A DNA stretch of 46,303 nucleotides from positions 1 through 46,303 of the forward strand of contig JAFXSQ010000058.1 in assembly GCA_017525525.1 (NCBI GenBank), written 5' to 3'. This DNA is from Lachnospiraceae bacterium (GTDB lineage: Bacteria > Bacillota > Clostridia > Lachnospirales > Lachnospiraceae). Each line of letters starts with the position of its first letter. Position 1 is the first letter of the stretch. A program made the position numbers and the translations under genes. Under the pieces are notes generated by a model. That model was not told where the DNA came from, ran no database searches, and was given only the letters and a program-made list of their open reading frames with translations. This document shows, one piece after another, positions 4,626-37,696 of the stretch.

Positions 4626-5712
4626 ATGAGTATTCGCTCAAGAAAACCTGTCTGTATTTTTCATAATCATGCATACTTAAGAAACCGCAATCATGCACGC
4701 ACCATGTCTTCTCCTGATACGGTATGAGCACCCTGTAACCATTTCGTATGAATTCCATGCATTGGGAAGCGTCATAGAAATCCCAACCGTCAAACAGATC
4801 TTCTCTCCAAGGAAGATCATACTGCGTAGCAAGCAGAAGCCCATCACACAATACAGCATTAATATCGCTTTCATCCGGATAATTCCTTAGCAGTACAGTT
4901 TCATTTACATGAGTTTCTAAAACCGATCCGTATCGAGGTACATTCCACATTGTTCCGTCCGCGGGAAAGCTGTCCGTCCCAACCATACCGATCATGCCAA
5001 CATTCTCGTTATCTGCAAAAAGATCTATCAATCTGCTTACAAAGTCTCTATCGATTATTCGTACATCTTGATGCATATAAACCTTATACTTCGCTGAAGA
5101 TGCACTCATTCCCTCGTTATACCCCGCGCAAAGCGAGCAAGCCTCTTGTACGGATATCACATCCAGCTTTACTCCATCAGGTACATCCAATCTGCTTATG
5201 TAGAATATGGCTTCTTCAAGTTCGTTACTGTTATTACTGCATATAATAAAATCAACCGCTATATCCTTATAACTATGTTTTTGCACATACCTCGGCGATT
5301 CGTTCGAATCGTCTGATGGATTACCATATAGTTTGTTTAAAACCCTTTCCGGTTCCGGTGTAGATACATTTATAGTCCAAAGCAATTCACTTGCTTTAGC
5401 ACCTGTCGAGCGAAGAGCAGCCGGAATCCCTAACGCATCATGCTCATCGCAATAAGCAATCCTCTGTACCTCACGTTTCAAATTCAGGAAAGCATCGCTT
5501 ACCTCCCTTACAGTCTTTTTCCCGGTGACTATACCCATTTCTCCTGTATTACGGAAAGCCTCCCTGTTTACTTCGCACATACAGAAAAAATAGCTCAATT
5601 CATTTGATTTCGACAAGGTGTCCATATTACTATCCAGCAATTCAAAGATTCGCTGATAATCACTTGTTTCTAAAAGTTCATTTATCTTGCTTTCAAGTTC
5701 CGAAACCACCAT
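4615..5712 (-). CDS. Glycosyltransferase, GT2-like (Glyco_tranf_2_5 type)
   Basis: Predicted glycosyltransferase of 365 aa. The start is ATG 5712, because GAGG lies 9 bp upstream; the in-frame GTG at 5718 is too close to that site. Residues 1-130 are a helical region without a clear family. The rest matches a GT-A fold: FIICSNNSNELEEAI, then NEGMSASSAKYKVYMHQDV with the metal/nucleotide-binding His-Gln-Asp stretch, then a GMIGMVG strand and an acceptor region with WREDLFDGWDFYDAS. It lies 11 bp after the LicD-type gene, whose stop overlaps its ribosome site, so the two are cotranscribed. Together with flagellin upstream this suggests modification of flagellin or another surface glycan. The region looks richer in A+T than the flagellar genes, as glycan islands often are. 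Confidence 0.75.
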   Translation of the reverse strand: MVVSELESKINELLETSDYQRIFELLDSNMDTLSKSNELSYFFCMCEVNREAFRNTGEMGIVTGKKTVREVSDAFLNLKREVQRIAYCDEHDALGIPAALRSTGAKASELLWTINVSTPEPERVLNKLYGNPSDDSNESPRYVQKHSYKDIAVDFIICSNNSNELEEAIFYISRLDVPDGVKLDVISVQEACSLCAGYNEGMSASSAKYKVYMHQDVRIIDRDFVSRLIDLFADNENVGMIGMVGTDSFPADGTMWNVPRYGSVLETHVNETVLLRNYPDESDINAVLCDGLLLATQYDLPWREDLFDGWDFYDASQCMEFIRNGYRVLIPYQEKTWCVHDCGFLSMHDYEKYRQVFLSEYSSIL

Positions 5713-30026: not shown

Positions 30027-30272
30027 TTAGCCGTTGATTGACTCGTGGAACGTACGTGAGATAACGTCAGCCTGCTGCTCGGGTGTGAGCTTGATGAAGT
30101 TAACTGCGTATCCCGATACACGGATTGTAAGCTGAGGATAGTTCTCAGGATGCTTCTGAGCATCGATAAGTGTCTCCCTGTTGTATACATTTACATTAAG
30201 GTGATATCCACCTTTCTCTGCATATCCGTCTAACATACCAACTAAGTTATCAATCTGCTGTTTACTAGCCAT
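30027..30272 (-). CDS. Separate glycyl-radical polypeptide of pyruvate formate-lyase (GrcA-like)
   Basis: 81 aa, ATG 30272 with GAGGAGG upstream. It matches the C-terminal glycyl-radical domain of [21 protein letters not shown], then [33 protein letters not shown]. The radical Gly is Gly54, 27 residues from the end, as in full-length PFL (26). GrcA/YfiD is known as a spare part that rescues oxygen-cleaved PFL. Here the core enzyme in the same operon lacks this domain altogether, so this polypeptide should be an obligatory subunit. Core (687) plus this (81) equals about one normal PFL. Confidence 0.92.
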
Positions 30273-30325
30273 GTCGTCTATTACCTCCTCTTATTTTGAT
30301 AAAATACAGTCTGTCTCTGCTTGTC

Positions 30326-30375
30326 GGATGAGTGAATATGTAACACGCTCACTTCGTGACCGTTAACATATTCAT
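30326..30375. other. Intercistronic hairpin in the pfl operon
   Basis: GAATATGT-AAC (30333-30343) pairs with GTTAACATATTC (30361-30372) with one bulge; TCAC-TTC-GTGA lies in the loop. There is no T tract, so it is probably an mRNA-stabilising or processing structure between the two small genes. Confidence 0.5.
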
Positions 30376-30402
30376 CTCTCCTCTTATACTATGTACGGAG
30401 CC

Positions 30403-30615
30403 TTAATCCTGCTCCATATACTCGTCTATGCCCTCATGAAGCGTGGGAACCGCACAGGCGAGGTTACCCTTTGCGCAGTCAAGGCAGCCAAGGGTCTCCT
30501 CCGTCTTACCCTCCTGATTGGGATCGTAAGACACATTTATATGCCCGTGTTCGTTCGCAACCATGTTGTCAAGCATAGCTACTATGTCGTCTACATTGTT
30601 TAATCCGTTATCCAT
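30403..30615 (-). CDS. Small Cys-containing relative of the glycyl-radical domain, function unknown
   Basis: 70 aa, ATG 30615 with AAAGGAGGT upstream, between the PFL core and the glycyl-radical gene. Its first 33 residues resemble the N-terminus of the 81-aa glycyl-radical protein: VDDIVAMLDNMVANEHGHIN-V against [21 protein letters not shown]. The radical loop RVSGY is absent. In its place is an acidic segment and a C-x2-C-x6-C motif (Cys44, Cys47, Cys54) followed by AVPTLHEGIDEYM. It cannot carry the glycyl radical. It may occupy the same surface on the core as a placeholder or chaperone, or sense redox/metal through the cysteines. No described family is recognised. Confidence 0.8.
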   Translation of the reverse strand: MDNGLNNVDDIVAMLDNMVANEHGHINVSYDPNQEGKTEETLGCLDCAKGNLACAVPTLHEGIDEYMEQD

Positions 30616-30694
30616 AAACTTTTACCTCCTTTGATAACGCCAAGCTCACCGATTGCAAGCTCCGGTTCACCAAGCTTCGCCGGAGATATCTTTA

Positions 30695-32758
30695 TTACAG
30701 CTTGAGATCAACGTCAAGGTCACCTGCGAATACCTGATCCTCCTTGCCAAGAGCTCCCGGAATGATAGAGAAGGTATTTGAGATACCATCCTGTGAATCC
30801 ATGTAAGGAAGCTTAGCAACTGATGAAAGTGAAGCAAGTGCTCCGTGAGTATCTCTCTGATGCATCGGGTTAGCACCGGGTGCGAAAGGCTGTCCGTGCT
30901 TACGTCCGCAAGGTGTATCACCTGTGTTCTTACCATAGGTAACGTTTGAAGTAATGGTAAGGATAGACATGGTCGGGAAGCCGTTTCTGTATACATGATG
31001 CTTTCTTAACTTGTGCATGAAGGTTGAAACAAGGCTTGCTGCAAGAGAGTCTACTCTGTCATCATTGTTACCGTACTTCGGGAAGTCTCCCTCTGTCTCG
31101 TAAGAAACTACGATGCCCTGCTCATTTCTGATACACTTAACCTTTGCATACTTGATAGCTGAAAGTGAGTCAGCTACTACAGAAAGTCCTGCAAGACCGG
31201 TTGCGAAGAATCTTCTTACATCCCTGTCATGAAGAGCCATCTGGATGCGCTCGTAAGCATACTTGTCATGCATATAGTGGATGATGTTAAGTGCGCTTAC
31301 ATAAACCTTTGCAAGCCACTCCATCATGTCGTCAAACTTCTCCATAACCTCATCATAATCGAGGTACTCGGAAGTGATAGGTCTGTACTTAGGACCAACC
31401 TGAACGCCTGTGCACTCATCAACACCACCGTTGATAGCGTAAAGAAGGCACTTTGCAAGGTTAGCTCTTGCACCGAAGAACTGCATATCCTTACCGATTC
31501 TCATAGAAGATACGCAGCATGCGATACCGTAGTCATCACCGTGAACAGGTCTCATAAGATCATCGTTCTCGTACTGGATAGATGATGACTTGATTGACAT
31601 CTTAGCGCAGTACTGCTTCCAGTTGATAGGAAGTCTGGTTGACCAGAGAACTGTAAGGTTCGGCTCCGGTGCTGTACCAAGGTTGTCAAGTGTGTGGAGG
31701 TAACGGAAGCTCATCTTTGTTACAAGAGTTCTGCCGTCTACGCCCATACCGCCGAGTGACTCGGTTACCCATACCGGATCACCTGCGAAGATTGAGTTGT
31801 ACTCAGGTGTTCTTGCGAACTTTACGCAACGAAGCTTCATGACGAAGTGATCGATGAACTCCTGAATCTGCTCCTCTGTAAATGTACCGTTCTTTAAGTC
31901 TCTCTCTGCGTAGATATCAAGGAAGGTAGATGTACGTCCAAGTGACATAGCCGCACCGTTCTGCTCCTTAACTGCGCCGAGGTAACCGAAGTACAGGAAC
32001 TGGATTGCTTCCTGAACATTCTTTGCCGGCTTTGATATATCTATGCCGTAGGAAGCTGCCATCTGCTTTAATTCCTGAAGTGCTCTTATCTGTTCGGCAA
32101 TCTCCTCCTTGCCTCTGATAACATCATCAGTATATACATCTCCGAAGGACTCCTTCTGGATCTTCTTGTCCTCTATGAGGAAGTCGATACCGTAAAGAGC
32201 AACTCTTCTGTAATCGCCGATTATACGGCCACGTCCATATGCATCCGGAAGACCTGTGATGATGTGGTTTGTACGGCATCTTCTGATCTCTGCGTCGTAT
32301 ACATCAAACACACCTGCGTTGTGTGTCTTTCTGTGAGTTGTGAAGAACTCTACTATCTCGGGATCTACTTTGTAGCCGTTGTCCTCGCATGCCTTCATAG
32401 CCATACGAATACCACCGTATACATTCATTCCACGCTTGAAAGGCTTGTCTGTCTGGAAGCCTACGATAGTCTCCTTATCCTTATCTAAGTATCCGGGACC
32501 GTGTGAAGTAAGTGTAGATACAACCTTTGTGTCCATATCGAGCACGCCGCCTGCTTCTCTCTCCTTCTTGGTGAGATCCATAACCATAGCCCAAAGATCT
32601 TTTGTGTTCTGTGTAGGTTCTGCAAGGAAGGTGTCATCTCCCTCATACGGAGTGTAGTTTCTCTGGATGAAGTCTCTGACCTCTACCTCCTTCTGCCACT
32701 TTCCGGGCACAAAGCCCTCCCAGCTGTCTGTCTCCAATGCATTCAGTTTGAGTAACAT
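30695..32758 (-). CDS. pflB: Pyruvate formate-lyase core polypeptide, lacking the glycyl-radical domain
   Basis: 687 aa; ATG 32758 was chosen because conserved sequence starts there ([16 protein letters not shown]) with purine-rich ribosome sites upstream, while the open frame to 32830 has none. It converts pyruvate and CoA to acetyl-CoA and formate. The catalytic Cys pair is present at 414-415 ([13 protein letters not shown]), as are [16 protein letters not shown] and the substrate-pocket regions. It ends at [28 protein letters not shown] followed by two stop codons, exactly where a one-piece PFL would continue into the glycyl-radical domain. That domain is encoded two genes downstream. The ending is clean, with no remnant of the domain after the stop. 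Confidence 0.95.
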
Positions 32759-33159: not shown

Positions 33160-33375
33160 ATGACATTAAATGATGCCGAGCTCGGAAAAGAATATGTGAT
33201 TACCGACGTGAACACCGAGGGTGATGAGGAGATAGAAAGCTTCCTCTTCTCTTTGGGGTGCTACAGCGGCGAGAAGATCACAGTCGTAGATAAGAAGAGA
33301 AATCTCGTTGTGTCCATAAAGGATGCGCGCTACAACATCGATCCTGAGCTTGCAGGAGCCATCTCTGTACAATAA
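33160..33375 (+). CDS. feoA: Ferrous iron transport protein A
   Basis: 71 aa, ATG 33160 behind AAGGAGAC. Small SH3-like cytoplasmic protein that supports FeoB. The pattern TLNDAELGKEYVITDVN is followed by FLFSLGCYSGEKITVVDKKR and a terminal VSIKDARYNIDPELAGAISV, which is the standard FeoA fold, including the conserved ARYxID motif. It is first in the operon feoA-feoB-small membrane protein. The gap to feoB (187 bp) holds a second regulator-like inverted repeat and an intergenic repeat. Confidence 0.93.
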   Translation: MTLNDAELGKEYVITDVNTEGDEEIESFLFSLGCYSGEKITVVDKKRNLVVSIKDARYNIDPELAGAISVQ

Positions 33376-33440
33376 TTGATAGGGACCTGTGCCTTGTCAA
33401 AGACGCGTTGGAATAAAGCGCGTTTTCTTTTCAAAACCAG

Positions 33441-33456
33441 GTTAGGTTAATCTAAC
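33441..33456 (+). promoter_or_regulatory. Second GTTAGG-N4-TCTAAC inverted repeat, upstream of feoB
   Basis: GTTAGG-TTAA-TCTAAC, also extended by one matched pair (G...C). It has the same arms and spacing as the site at the feo promoter, and reads TTAGGTTAATCTAA, close to the IdeR/DtxR consensus. It may control a second promoter or reinforce repression. Confidence 0.6.
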
Positions 33457-33466
33457 CGCAATAATA

Positions 33467-33541
33467 AGATTCTTCGGGCTAAAGCCCTCAGAATGACACG
33501 GATGTGTCACCCTGAGCATAGTGAAGCTATGCGAAGGTTCT
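33467..33541. repeat. Dispersed intergenic palindromic repeat (two units back to back)
   Basis: AAGATTCTTCGGGCTAAAGC then CCTCAGAATGACACGG, then TGTCACCCTGAGCATAGTGA and AGCTATGCGAAGGTTCTT, i.e. the unit followed by its inverted counterpart, inside the feoA-feoB gap just before the feoB ribosome site. Confidence 0.7.
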
Positions 33542-33562
33542 TATAATAAGGAGGAATTAATC

Positions 33563-35560
33563 ATGAGAATTGCTTTAACAGGTAATCCGAACAGCGGTAA
33601 AACCACCATGTTCAATGCGCTTACCGGAAGAAGCGAGAAGATCGGTAACTGGGCAGGCGTTACCGTGGACAAGAAGGAAAGTCCAATTAAAAAAGCCTAC
33701 AACGACACTGACACGGAGCTTATAGCCGTGGATCTTCCGGGCGCATACTCCATGTCACCGTTTACATCCGAGGAAAGCATCACCAGCGCTTATGTAAAAA
33801 ACGAGCATCCGGATGTAATCATCAATATCGTGGATGAGACAAACTTAAGCCGAAGCCTGTTCTTCACAACCCAGCTTTTGGAGCTCGGCGTTCCGGTGGT
33901 AGTTGCACTTAACAAGAGCGACTTAACCGCCAAGAAAGGCAACAAGGTAGACACAAAGAAGCTGTCCGAGAAGCTTGGCTGTCCCGTTCTTGAAACAGTG
34001 TCCACCTCGGACAAGGGCTTAAAGGACGTTGTCTCGGCAGCTGCTGCCGCAGCAGGCAAGGGACAGAAGGCTCCCTACACTCAGGGCGATATAGACTTAA
34101 GCGACAAGGCAGCGGTTGAGGCTGCGGACAGAAAGAGATTTGATTTTGTAAACAATATAGTAAAGGATGTAGAGAAGCGTAAGACACTTACCAAGGACAA
34201 GACCACAGGTGATAAGATTGATAAGATTATAACACATCCGATCTTGGGACTTCTCATCTTCGCGGGCATCATGTTCCTTGTGTTCTACATCTCACAGACA
34301 ACAGTCGGTACATGGCTTGCGGATATCCTTGCAGGCTGGATAGAGACCTTCCAGGAGTGGGCAGGCGAGAAGCTCGGCGATGCAAACCCGTTGCTCTACG
34401 CGCTCCTTATAGACGGTATAATCGGCGGTGTCGGAGCCGTAGTCGGTTTCCTTCCCCTCGTTATGGTTATGTACTTCCTTATCGCGCTTCTTGAGGACTG
34501 CGGTTACATGTCAAGAGCTACCGTTGTTCTCGATCCCATCTTCAAGCGTGTGGGACTTTCCGGTAAATCGGTTATCCCCATGATCATCGGTACAGGCTGC
34601 GGTATCCCCGCAATCATGGCCTGCCGTACCATCAAGAATGAGCGTGAGCGCCGCGCGACCGCGATGCTTACGACCTTCATGCCCTGCGGCGCCAAGCTTC
34701 CCGTTATAGCGCTTTTCGCAGGAGCATTCTTCCCCGATTCAAAGTGGGTAAGTTTTGTATGCTACATGCTCGGAATAGTACTTATACTCCTCGGAGCACT
34801 CCTCATAAAAGCAATAACCGCATCAAAATTCAGAAAATCGTTCTTCATAATCGAGCTCCCGGAGTATAAGATTCCGAGTCTGTGGTTTGCAGTAAAGTCC
34901 ATGCTCGAGCGTGGCAAAGCCTACATCATCAAAGCAGGAACCATCATTCTTGTATGTAACACGGTGGTTCAGATCATGCAGGCCTTCAACTGGAGCTTTG
35001 AGGCTATTGAGGAGGGTGCCGAGGACACATCTATCTTAGCAAGCATTGCAGGACCCTTCTCATATCTTCTGGTTCCGATCGTAGGTATCGCATCATGGCA
35101 GCTTGCCGCTGCTGCGATTACCGGCTTTATCGCAAAGGAGAATGTCGTAGGTACCATCGCAACGGTATTTTCCATTACTAACCTGGTCGATCCGGATGAG
35201 CTTGAGCTCATAGGCGAGGGAACCTCCGTTGCAGCGGTTATCGGCATAACAAAGGCAGCAGCTCTTGCTTACCTTATGTTCAACCTCTACACACCACCTT
35301 GCTTTGCTGCCTTAGGTGCTATGAACTCGGAAATGAAATCGGCCAAGTGGCTCTGGGGTGCTATAGGACTTCAGCTTGCAACAGGCTTTACCGTAGGCTT
35401 CCTTGTATACCAGTTCGGTACGCTCTTCACAGAGGGAACCTTCGGCGCAGGCTTTGTCGGAGGACTTATAGCAATCCTCTGCTTTGCAGGAATAATAACC
35501 GGTATTATCATACACAACAACAAGAAGATAAAACTGGAATACCAGCTTAGCCAGTCATAA
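33563..35560 (+). CDS. feoB: Ferrous iron transporter FeoB
   Basis: 665 aa; ATG 33563 behind AAGGAGG (the frame is open from 33521, but that part is repeat). GTP-gated inner-membrane Fe(II) uptake protein. The N-terminal G domain has G1 GNPNSGKTT (residues 7-15), a G2 region with NWAGVTVDKKE, G3 DLPGAYS and G4 NKSD. The membrane part contains two gate domains, including GTGCGIPAIMACRTIKNERERR and the paired ANVVGTIATVF-type helix (here ENVVGTIATVF), with about eight to ten membrane segments. It is shorter than E. coli FeoB (773 aa), as is common in clostridia. Confidence 0.95.
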   Translation: MRIALTGNPNSGKTTMFNALTGRSEKIGNWAGVTVDKKESPIKKAYNDTDTELIAVDLPGAYSMSPFTSEESITSAYVKNEHPDVIINIVDETNLSRSLFFTTQLLELGVPVVVALNKSDLTAKKGNKVDTKKLSEKLGCPVLETVSTSDKGLKDVVSAAAAAAGKGQKAPYTQGDIDLSDKAAVEAADRKRFDFVNNIVKDVEKRKTLTKDKTTGDKIDKIITHPILGLLIFAGIMFLVFYISQTTVGTWLADILAGWIETFQEWAGEKLGDANPLLYALLIDGIIGGVGAVVGFLPLVMVMYFLIALLEDCGYMSRATVVLDPIFKRVGLSGKSVIPMIIGTGCGIPAIMACRTIKNERERRATAMLTTFMPCGAKLPVIALFAGAFFPDSKWVSFVCYMLGIVLILLGALLIKAITASKFRKSFFIIELPEYKIPSLWFAVKSMLERGKAYIIKAGTIILVCNTVVQIMQAFNWSFEAIEEGAEDTSILASIAGPFSYLLVPIVGIASWQLAAAAITGFIAKENVVGTIATVFSITNLVDPDELELIGEGTSVAAVIGITKAAALAYLMFNLYTPPCFAALGAMNSEMKSAKWLWGAIGLQLATGFTVGFLVYQFGTLFTEGTFGAGFVGGLIAILCFAGIITGIIIHNNKKIKLEYQLSQS

Positions 35561-35859: not shown

Positions 35860-37632
35860 TTACCCTACCGCGACGCGGTTCTTGCCGTTGGCCTTGGCAG
35901 CGTAAAGCGCCTTATCCACGCGCATGGTAACCGTATCCGCGCTCTCGCCGGGTTTGTACTGCGTAACTCCTAAGGTCATGGATACGTGTCCGGCCTTCTC
36001 GAAGCTCACCTCATAGAAATCTGTTCTGAGTCTCTCTGCAAGCTTTCTCGCCGTTTCCTCATCCGTCTCACGAAGAAGTATCATGAACTCCTCTCCGCCC
36101 CAGCGTCCTATCTCGGCAGGTATCCTGCTCTCACCTACATTCTTTCTTAATACATCCGCTAGCCCCTTCAGAACCTGATCACCCTCGTGATGGCCGTAGG
36201 TATCATTTACCTTCTTAAAGTCATCGAGATCCATCATTATCAGACTTATGGGATAATCCCTGCCTTCTCCGTTCTCAAGCTCATCGGTTATCCGTCGCTG
36301 TATCTCGCCACGGTTCAGCAAACCTGTCATGGCATCGGTTATGGCTGCTTCCGCAAGCTTCTTGTAAGCCTCCTCCATCTCCTCGGTCGTTGCATTGATG
36401 AAGGTAGTGAAGCGCTTAATCATGTTTATCTTGCCGGACTTGCTCTCCTCGGAAGGGATGTAGTAGATATCCCTGTCGGGATCCACATCGCCCTCACGCA
36501 TGGCCGCCACAACAAGAGTTACATTGTGAAGGTTCATGTACTTGTCCGTCCTTAAGAACTCTCCCGAAGTGAAGAAGCCGGCTGTCGAAGCTATAGCCTC
36601 AAAGGGCATGGTCTCTCCGCCCACATCCCTGTCACCCCAGTAAGAACGCCTTGCGGCGCAGGAGAACACATCTATGACCTCGGGCATGAACACAGCTACC
36701 GCCATACTGTCTTCCTTGATACTGTCTAAGATGACCTCGGGATCACCATAGGCCAGCCTTGCGCGCATTCCCTCTTTGATAGCTGAGCTCAAAGTGATTG
36801 AGCCGTCAGGATTGCTGTGTGTCGGAGCTCTGAGCAAATCTACGCCGTTTCTCTCAAAAAATATGGGAAACTCGAGCGCATTGTCAAAGAAGCTCGCATC
36901 ATTCTTTATGTTCAGGTACTTGTTGTAGATGTCAAACGCAGGCTTTCCGTCGAGCTCGCACAGTCTGTTATCCTCAGTCTTCGTCACAAGCATCTCCCTG
37001 CCTAAGGGCTGCCAGCCGGTAATGTGCATGGTAACCACATGGAACTCATCTCCGCCTATAAGGAGGAAGATGACCGCGCTGTCGGAGTAATCATTTTCCT
37101 TCGAGAACACAAAGGAATCGTCTCTCGCAAAGTTCGTCGGAAATGCACCGCCGCCGTAGATGCACACATCCTTCCTGCACTCCGCCATGACCTCACAGAA
37201 CTCAGTCATGCTCATACCGTTGATGGTCGTGAGCAGCTCTACCGACTTTACCCATCGGTTTGCATCTATGTAATTCTTTAATCTTCCAACAGTCTCAGCT
37301 TCATTTTCCTGGTTCATCGGAAGCTGAAAGACTCTGACTGTCGTATCGGGATACTCAAAGATATTGCAGATAACCGCAATCGTTTTCTTCCCCAGATCTC
37401 CCGATACTATATTGCCGTTAGTGGAGCAGCCGACATAATTGGCCTCCGGAAAGAACTTTTCTATTCCTTTTATTACCTCGTCGATAAGGGTCTTGTTCTT
37501 ATTATCCTCAATCTCGGCATAAATCTGGAAGAGTATCTCGTGAGCAATCTGTCTTTTAGTCCACTGTTTGAGCTTGCTTAATTCTCTAGCAAATGAGTTT
37601 TCACTCTCATATTCAATCTGAAATCTCCTCAT
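35860..37632 (-). CDS. FIST-domain diguanylate cyclase
   Basis: 590 aa; ATG 37632 chosen for the GGGGG ribosome site eight bases upstream (an in-frame ATG at 37671 lacks one). Residues ~20-385 are a FIST sensor (FIST_N then FIST_C): YVGCSTNGNIVSGDLGKKTI, CIYGGGAFPTNF and PFEAIASTAGFFTSGEF are characteristic. A helical connector (~395-425) leads to a GGDEF domain with DAMTGLLNRGEIQRRI, IMMDLDDFKKVNDTYGH and the active-site loop GGEEF (512-516), so it should make c-di-GMP. The usual product-inhibition motif RxxD is not intact (Arg503 present, Ala506 in place of Asp). There is no membrane segment. FIST domains are thought to bind small ligands such as amino acids. Confidence 0.9.
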   Translation of the reverse strand: MRRFQIEYESENSFARELSKLKQWTKRQIAHEILFQIYAEIEDNKNKTLIDEVIKGIEKFFPEANYVGCSTNGNIVSGDLGKKTIAVICNIFEYPDTTVRVFQLPMNQENEAETVGRLKNYIDANRWVKSVELLTTINGMSMTEFCEVMAECRKDVCIYGGGAFPTNFARDDSFVFSKENDYSDSAVIFLLIGGDEFHVVTMHITGWQPLGREMLVTKTEDNRLCELDGKPAFDIYNKYLNIKNDASFFDNALEFPIFFERNGVDLLRAPTHSNPDGSITLSSAIKEGMRARLAYGDPEVILDSIKEDSMAVAVFMPEVIDVFSCAARRSYWGDRDVGGETMPFEAIASTAGFFTSGEFLRTDKYMNLHNVTLVVAAMREGDVDPDRDIYYIPSEESKSGKINMIKRFTTFINATTEEMEEAYKKLAEAAITDAMTGLLNRGEIQRRITDELENGEGRDYPISLIMMDLDDFKKVNDTYGHHEGDQVLKGLADVLRKNVGESRIPAEIGRWGGEEFMILLRETDEETARKLAERLRTDFYEVSFEKAGHVSMTLGVTQYKPGESADTVTMRVDKALYAAKANGKNRVAVG

Positions 37633-37696
37633 GCTTTTTCCCCCTGCTTTTCGCCCCTTCTCCTGTAGCATGGTAAGTATTCAGGCTGTCATTTTA

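Follow-up and report, generated by a model that had tools for sequence, protein, structure and literature searches.

In many anaerobes, pyruvate formate-lyase (PFL) is a major means of converting pyruvate into acetyl-CoA and formate; the enzyme is vulnerable through a radical that is sensitive to oxygen. The one-piece enzyme (TIGR01255; PDB 1h16) is a single chain, whereas the locus described here spreads the enzyme over two or three chains. The closest described system is GrcA/YfiD of E. coli (6owr; PMC8683613), in which, likewise, a PFL devoid of a glycyl-radical domain is made complete by a small free chain carrying one; YfiD there rescues an oxygen-damaged one-piece PFL, and its N-terminal half is disordered. 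PFL, the E. coli spare part and a family model for a protein named GrcA3 are already known. In the literature searched, with preprints and most subscription papers outside its scope, neither a natural two-piece PFL nor the name GrcA3 was found.

A PFL core and its separate radical domain

In the window, by which we mean the whole stretch of 46,303 nucleotides analysed, four genes follow each other on the minus strand in the order core, c70, GrcA3 and pflA (Table 1). Core, c70 and GrcA3 lie in three different reading frames, and each is preceded by an AGGAGG-type ribosome site.

Table 1. Parts of the pfl operon in the window and the evidence for each.
Feature	Position	Strand	Evidence and remarks
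PFL core without radical domain, 687 aa	30695..32758	-	TIGR01255, PF01228, catalytic Cys414-Cys415; stop 30695-30697; AGGAGG ribosome site just upstream
c70, 70 aa: GrcA3-like helix and strand, then Cys motif C44/C47/C54, no glycyl loop	30403..30615	-	alignments, hhalign, dN/dS
GrcA3, free-standing glycyl-radical domain, 81 aa, radical Gly54	30027..30272	-	NF038360, PF01228 positions 50-106
pflA, PFL-activating radical SAM enzyme, 255 aa	29189..29956	-	TIGR02493, 283.9 bits (cut-off 231.75)
Hairpin in the c70-GrcA3 gap	30328..30379	-	the 130-base intergenic stretch folds with -34.4 kcal/mol (raw value, without shuffle control)

The core scores 1102.4 bits against TIGR01255 (cut-off 994.2), and the match stops at model position 666 of 744. 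It passes this equivalog test for PFL, the next-best family reaching only 166 bits, and keeps the adjacent Cys414-Cys415 pair. Its glycyl-radical domain is encoded not in the same chain but by a separate gene: of the 106 positions of the Pfam glycine-radical domain PF01228, the core covers 1-50 and the 81-aa protein 50-106. Core and small protein jointly span the whole TIGR01255 model, and each aligns well to PDB 1h16. It could be argued that the core is no longer a PFL and has become a glycyl-radical enzyme acting on another substrate. Nothing was found that favours this, and it is very improbable in view of the distance between the PFL score and that of the next family, of the retained Cys-Cys pair and of the adjoining pflA.

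The 81-aa protein passes the NCBIfam model NF038360, 'autonomous glycyl radical cofactor GrcA3', with 161.1 bits (cut-off 158). Its residues 8-78 align with E. coli PFL 683-758, and residues 20-79 with positions 68-127 of GrcA/YfiD in PDB 6owr. The protein thus fits the model; the name covers the small protein only, not c70 or the Cys tail described below. The initial annotation had already read the locus as a 687-aa core with Cys414-Cys415 stopping where PFL enters its radical domain, and as a radical domain placed two genes downstream as a separate 81-aa protein with Gly54; the points at which the TIGR01255 and PF01228 matches end, together with the NF038360 score, bear out both statements.

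It had also raised the question of another full-length pflB in the genome. Profile searches of the host assembly (3.19 Mb, 99.74% complete) with PF01228 and PF02901 found no intact pflB. PF01228 matches only the core, GrcA3 and an NrdD (anaerobic ribonucleotide reductase), and PF02901 matches this core alone above its cut-off, with one more, sub-threshold match at E 0.013. The GrcA3 of the window is thus not, in the manner of GrcA, the spare of a full-length PFL found in the same assembly.

Several observations concern the surroundings of these genes. A second copy of the hairpin, 86% identical over 58 bases, lies on a different contig (G000:C39:8781-8838), and the hairpin is perhaps a small intergenic repeat element. 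A feoA gene and an open reading frame that resembles FeoB (33160-35560, plus strand) adjoin the pfl operon with divergent starts, and the minus strand encodes at 35860-37671 a protein that combines FIST sensor domains with a GGDEF diguanylate cyclase domain.

Distribution and conservation of the split

NF038360 was run against 299 genomes sampled from the family. GrcA3 scores over the curated cut-off in 101 of them and is free-standing in 98, the remaining three (G252, G074, G096) being left out of the latter count because the model there matches the terminal part of a 752-774-aa frame. Sixteen further genomes have a short-frame GrcA3 just below the cut-off, which brings our own count of free-standing copies to 114 of 299. 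In a survey of the class with the same profile (341 genomes), 19 genomes have a free-standing copy at E 1e-40 or better, and these span nine families (f1, f4, f14, f18, f21, f22, f53, f56, f70). The split that the initial annotation had proposed to look for in related genomes is therefore found well beyond the host.

Forty-six genomes chosen for a free-standing GrcA3 were then searched with TIGR01255. All have a core match, which ends at model position 663-677 in 42 of them; in G099 and G110 it reaches as far as 700 and 704, across one or two stops, and in G061 and G157 it is listed in pieces. The truncated core is the only PFL match in 43 of the 46 genomes, and the other three (G265, G284, G296) hold a one-piece PFL alongside the split one. 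These last three genomes, the GrcA3 copies that have no core in the fetched flank and the domain and NCBI name shared with the E. coli protein could all be taken to mean that GrcA3 is no more than a spare part with the role that GrcA/YfiD has in E. coli, the repair of a full-length PFL. Such a role can hardly account for the arrangement, since neither the host genome nor those 43 genomes have a one-piece PFL to be repaired, and since the core itself is without a radical domain.

The core-less copies have features of their own. Of the 18 GrcA3 loci without a core in the fetched flank, seven (L041, L049, L051, L054, L073, L081, L083) share a gene belonging to one cluster; in the one such locus scanned this gene (L083:3616-4353) encodes a Crp/Fnr-type regulator and lies directly upstream of GrcA3, which fits stress-induced spare copies. 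Locus L051 has two GrcA3 copies about 3 kb apart (1912-2136 and 5044-5268).

Across loci, the frame of GrcA3 relative to the core is spread over all three possibilities (31/26/34), as is that of c70 (25/16/29), and a purine-rich ribosome site, by a loose pattern, precedes 110 of 110 GrcA3 genes and 60 of 71 c70 genes. Where measurable, dN/dS is 0.02-0.10 for the core and 0.01-0.08 for GrcA3. Pseudogene formation, assembly error and recoding were considered as candidates and rejected on conservation, frames and ribosome sites, nothing having come up in their favour. With a split so widespread, recurring in many genera, with purifying selection on both parts, with frames so spread and with ribosome sites so usual, there is next to no chance that a single gene has been broken by decay or sequencing error or is joined in translation by programmed recoding. 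The statement in the initial annotation that the arrangement is not decay holds on the same grounds. Annotation built on one-piece PFL may nevertheless mistake such cores for truncated genes.

As a variation in layout, c70 in loci L147 and L197 (G445) comes last of the three, after GrcA3, and not between it and the core.

The middle gene c70 and the cysteine tail

The reading of the locus as a PFL with its radical domain on a separate chain stands. The intervening gene c70, which the initial annotation passed over, proves to be a conserved third component. For the window copy, searches of Pfam and NCBIfam up to E 1 give no match of its own, yet 72 sequences can be aligned. In an alignment of 35 rows, residues D10, D16, G24, H25, N27 and V28 are invariant in the first part, and T41, G43, C44, D46, C47, A53, C54, V56, P57, T58, L59, G62 and D64 in the second. 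The first 32 residues are homologous to residues 1-31 of GrcA3 (hhalign 92.6%, E 4.4e-7), that is, to the stretch leading into the glycyl loop; weak matches to the GrcA3 model are seen in 32 of the 35 members (best E 2.8e-4), with none for the window copy. c70 has no glycyl-radical loop (RVSGYA), which sets it apart from the GrcA type, and carries instead a Cys motif, spaced C-x2-C-x6-C in the window. It is under purifying selection: dS was estimable in three of seven pairs, one of them near saturation, and dN/dS in these is 0.05, 0.06 and 0.22.

c70 was searched for in 69 whole genomes, matches at E 4.6e-9 or better being regarded as real. It is present in 26 of them, all among the 51 with a free-standing GrcA3, and in none of the 18 chosen for a one-piece PFL only. 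The weaker matches, where placed, fall inside GrcA3 or inside the radical domain of a one-piece PFL. In G282 and G297, c70 is located away from the core. The c70 profile has no match in the PDB up to E 10, and 13 c70 pattern matches in viral contigs include no relative.

Most split cores without c70 have a C-terminal tail with a similar Cys motif, for example DLDCSNGACSTPTLFEGLD (L149) and GCEAGSCAIPNLEEGLDRE (L006), or in a shorter form such as DCACCEPN. When a tail is defined as at least two Cys after LGK, the 131 split-core loci comprise 76 with c70 and no tail, 46 with a tail and no c70, none with both and nine with neither. Once identical core ends are collapsed, the 102 distinct cores divide into 70 with c70, 27 with a tail, none with both and five with neither (Fisher 5.7e-20, uncorrected for kinship); here L191 and L208 were reassigned to c70, because a diverged copy of the gene is present in their genomes, G259 and G350. 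The counts leave out one open-ended core as well as L142 and L205, whose HSPs are broken, and absence of c70 was judged within the fetched flank, except in the 69 genomes searched whole. As the 80 named loci were chosen by likeness to the GrcA3 of the window, the proportions are biased towards its kin. When the alternation is corrected for kinship, only five independent pairs (starred branches) are left, too small a number for the sign test, whose median p is 0.125; on average c70 and tail change in opposite directions in 3.8 of them and together in 0, and 1.2 show no difference. Real c70 is absent from all 18 tail-type genomes among those searched whole.

The simplest reading is that c70 and the tail would do the same job, in which case it is the shared cysteines that matter. 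Five distinct cores have neither (L034, L100, L151, L207, L209), and the searched genomes of four of these (G288, G448, G548, G486) contain no real c70 anywhere; either the Cys job is not indispensable, or the part that does it goes unrecognised. As to the nature of this job, the C-terminal Cys motif of NrdA, the class I ribonucleotide reductase of E. coli, acts as a redox arm. Tails such as DCSNGAC and GCEAGSC look like its C-terminus, GCESGAC(KI) (NrdA from L214), an analogy of short motifs only, with CX4C present in 21 of the 46 tail-type loci (duplicates included) and CC or CXC in most others. By this analogy, the tail or c70 may be a redox arm, as the likeness suggests.

Neither c70 nor the Cys tail has a family model of its own. 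The c70/Cys-tail module and the nested one-piece enzymes described below appear undescribed in the literature searched (preprints and most subscription papers being again outside). The module is thus a component without a family model that is directly testable.

Origin and possible working of the split enzyme

A quick tree of 105 cores, each cut off ahead of the tail, shows a split clade of 63 rows (98, starred) with 35 one-piece enzymes outside it; the clade takes in all split cores except L209, which sits on a long branch. Eight one-piece enzymes are nested in this clade (L156-L162, L211), seven of them as one group (99, starred) and L158 apart. Its sister (81) consists of the one-piece enzymes L166 and L171-L175 of the family, with L209. 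A single clade of the 55 split cores is rejected (AU p 0.0123), the group having been named after the tree was seen. L166 and L171-L175 have an unusual lead into the radical loop, and their group coexists with split PFL in G265, G284 and G296.

The tree of the radical domains, built from tblastn picks without L159, has few columns and leaves many forks unresolved. One of its branches (99, starred) separates 41 ordinary one-piece domains from GrcA3 and seven nested domains. The best identity of these seven is 78-93% to GrcA3 and 71-78% to ordinary domains. On the GrcA3 model, scores are 147-162 bits for the eight nested enzymes and at most 143 for the other one-piece enzymes among those listed. 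L158 has TCGCEEVTC between core and radical domain. A Cys motif at this seam is as expected from the fusion of a tail-type core with GrcA3, pointing to L158 having arisen by re-fusion; the other seven may be due to re-fusion or to late splits elsewhere.

The solved chains closest to the core, PDB 38la_A and 38lb_A, are both named 'Formate acetyltransferase'. They seem to be without a radical domain, as 38la and 38lb are not matched by a GrcA3 query of the PDB at E 0.001. 38lb has cysteines after LGK and falls inside the split clade, whereas 38la ends in LGKED and falls outside, the placement coming from a rough tree and the ends possibly being those of constructs. Both look like cores of this kind, and suggest that a structural group is already at work on such cores. 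Together with the NCBI family name, they make it probable that some groups already know of the split as such.

Very probably, core and GrcA3 together are the enzyme. From homology, sole occurrence and fusions, we infer that they form a working complex. It is also likely that c70 is a functional part of this system. Since a radical domain is missing from the core, the strand and glycyl loop of GrcA3 would enter the core barrel; PflA would then place the radical on Gly54, which would hand it to Cys414/Cys415 for pyruvate cleavage. Oxygen cutting GrcA3 would cost only an 81-aa part, and it is plausible that a radical part damaged by oxygen is thrown away and a fresh one put in its place.

A truncated PFL of E. 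coli made in the laboratory serves as a precedent. According to PMC8683613, PFL cut after residue 695 is, once activated with YfiD, as active as the wild type; the 1-695 core has no detectable YfiD binding and 32-fold less radical, so that a two-piece enzyme is not automatically efficient. The natural core ends, by alignment, at about E. coli position 680-690, so that binding of the partner must come about another way. c70 could replace the missing recognition element, c70 or the Cys tail being then an adaptor or a metal-binding third subunit of the active enzyme that holds GrcA3 or PflA on the core. The requirement of stretch 696-733 for YfiD binding in cleaved E. coli PFL (PMC8683613) would agree with this role, as would the correspondence of the N-half of c70 to part of the missing region and the three cysteines invariant in the 35-row alignment. 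It seems nonetheless rather unlikely, as tail-type cores have the Cys motif but not the strand of c70, the cysteines number only two in several tails and c70 proteins, few for a cluster, and the five distinct cores mentioned above manage with neither module.

As a hypothesis, we prefer to an adaptor the possibility that c70 fills the slot while GrcA3 is away, because tail-type cores have only the Cys motif in common with c70, and because the active-site cysteine itself reportedly takes part in oxygen inactivation. c70 or the fused Cys tail would then be a thiol module for the state without radical domain, a tentative proposal to which we give somewhat less than an even chance. c70 would dock in the same slot via its GrcA3-like strand, with its cysteines facing the open active site, where they could protect or re-reduce the catalytic cysteines or quench a stray radical; the two proteins would be plugs that replace each other, GrcA3 for the on state and c70 for the off state. 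The full form of this scheme, drawn by analogy, is less likely: interchangeable plugs, with GrcA3 as on-switch and c70 or the Cys tail as the counterpart of the redox arm of ribonucleotide reductase, preserving the catalytic cysteines or restoring them after oxygen, and a radical domain that was detached and later re-fused. Were plug swapping true, a cycle of swap and repair would be built into a glycyl-radical enzyme.

Other glycyl-radical enzymes provide a comparison. The large subunit of benzylsuccinate synthase and of 4-hydroxyphenylacetate decarboxylase keeps its radical domain. Both enzymes also have small accessory chains, those of the latter with Fe-S clusters (PMC11194802). Unlike those small subunits, c70 resembles the radical domain itself, and it matches no PDB chain. 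With respect to YfiD, the difference lies in the core, which here never has a radical domain, so that GrcA3 is a standard part, usually encoded in the same operon. With the radical part as a separate gene, the spare-part idea of E. coli becomes the normal state, and the split PFL lineage is a natural system for studying activation, exchange and oxygen recovery.
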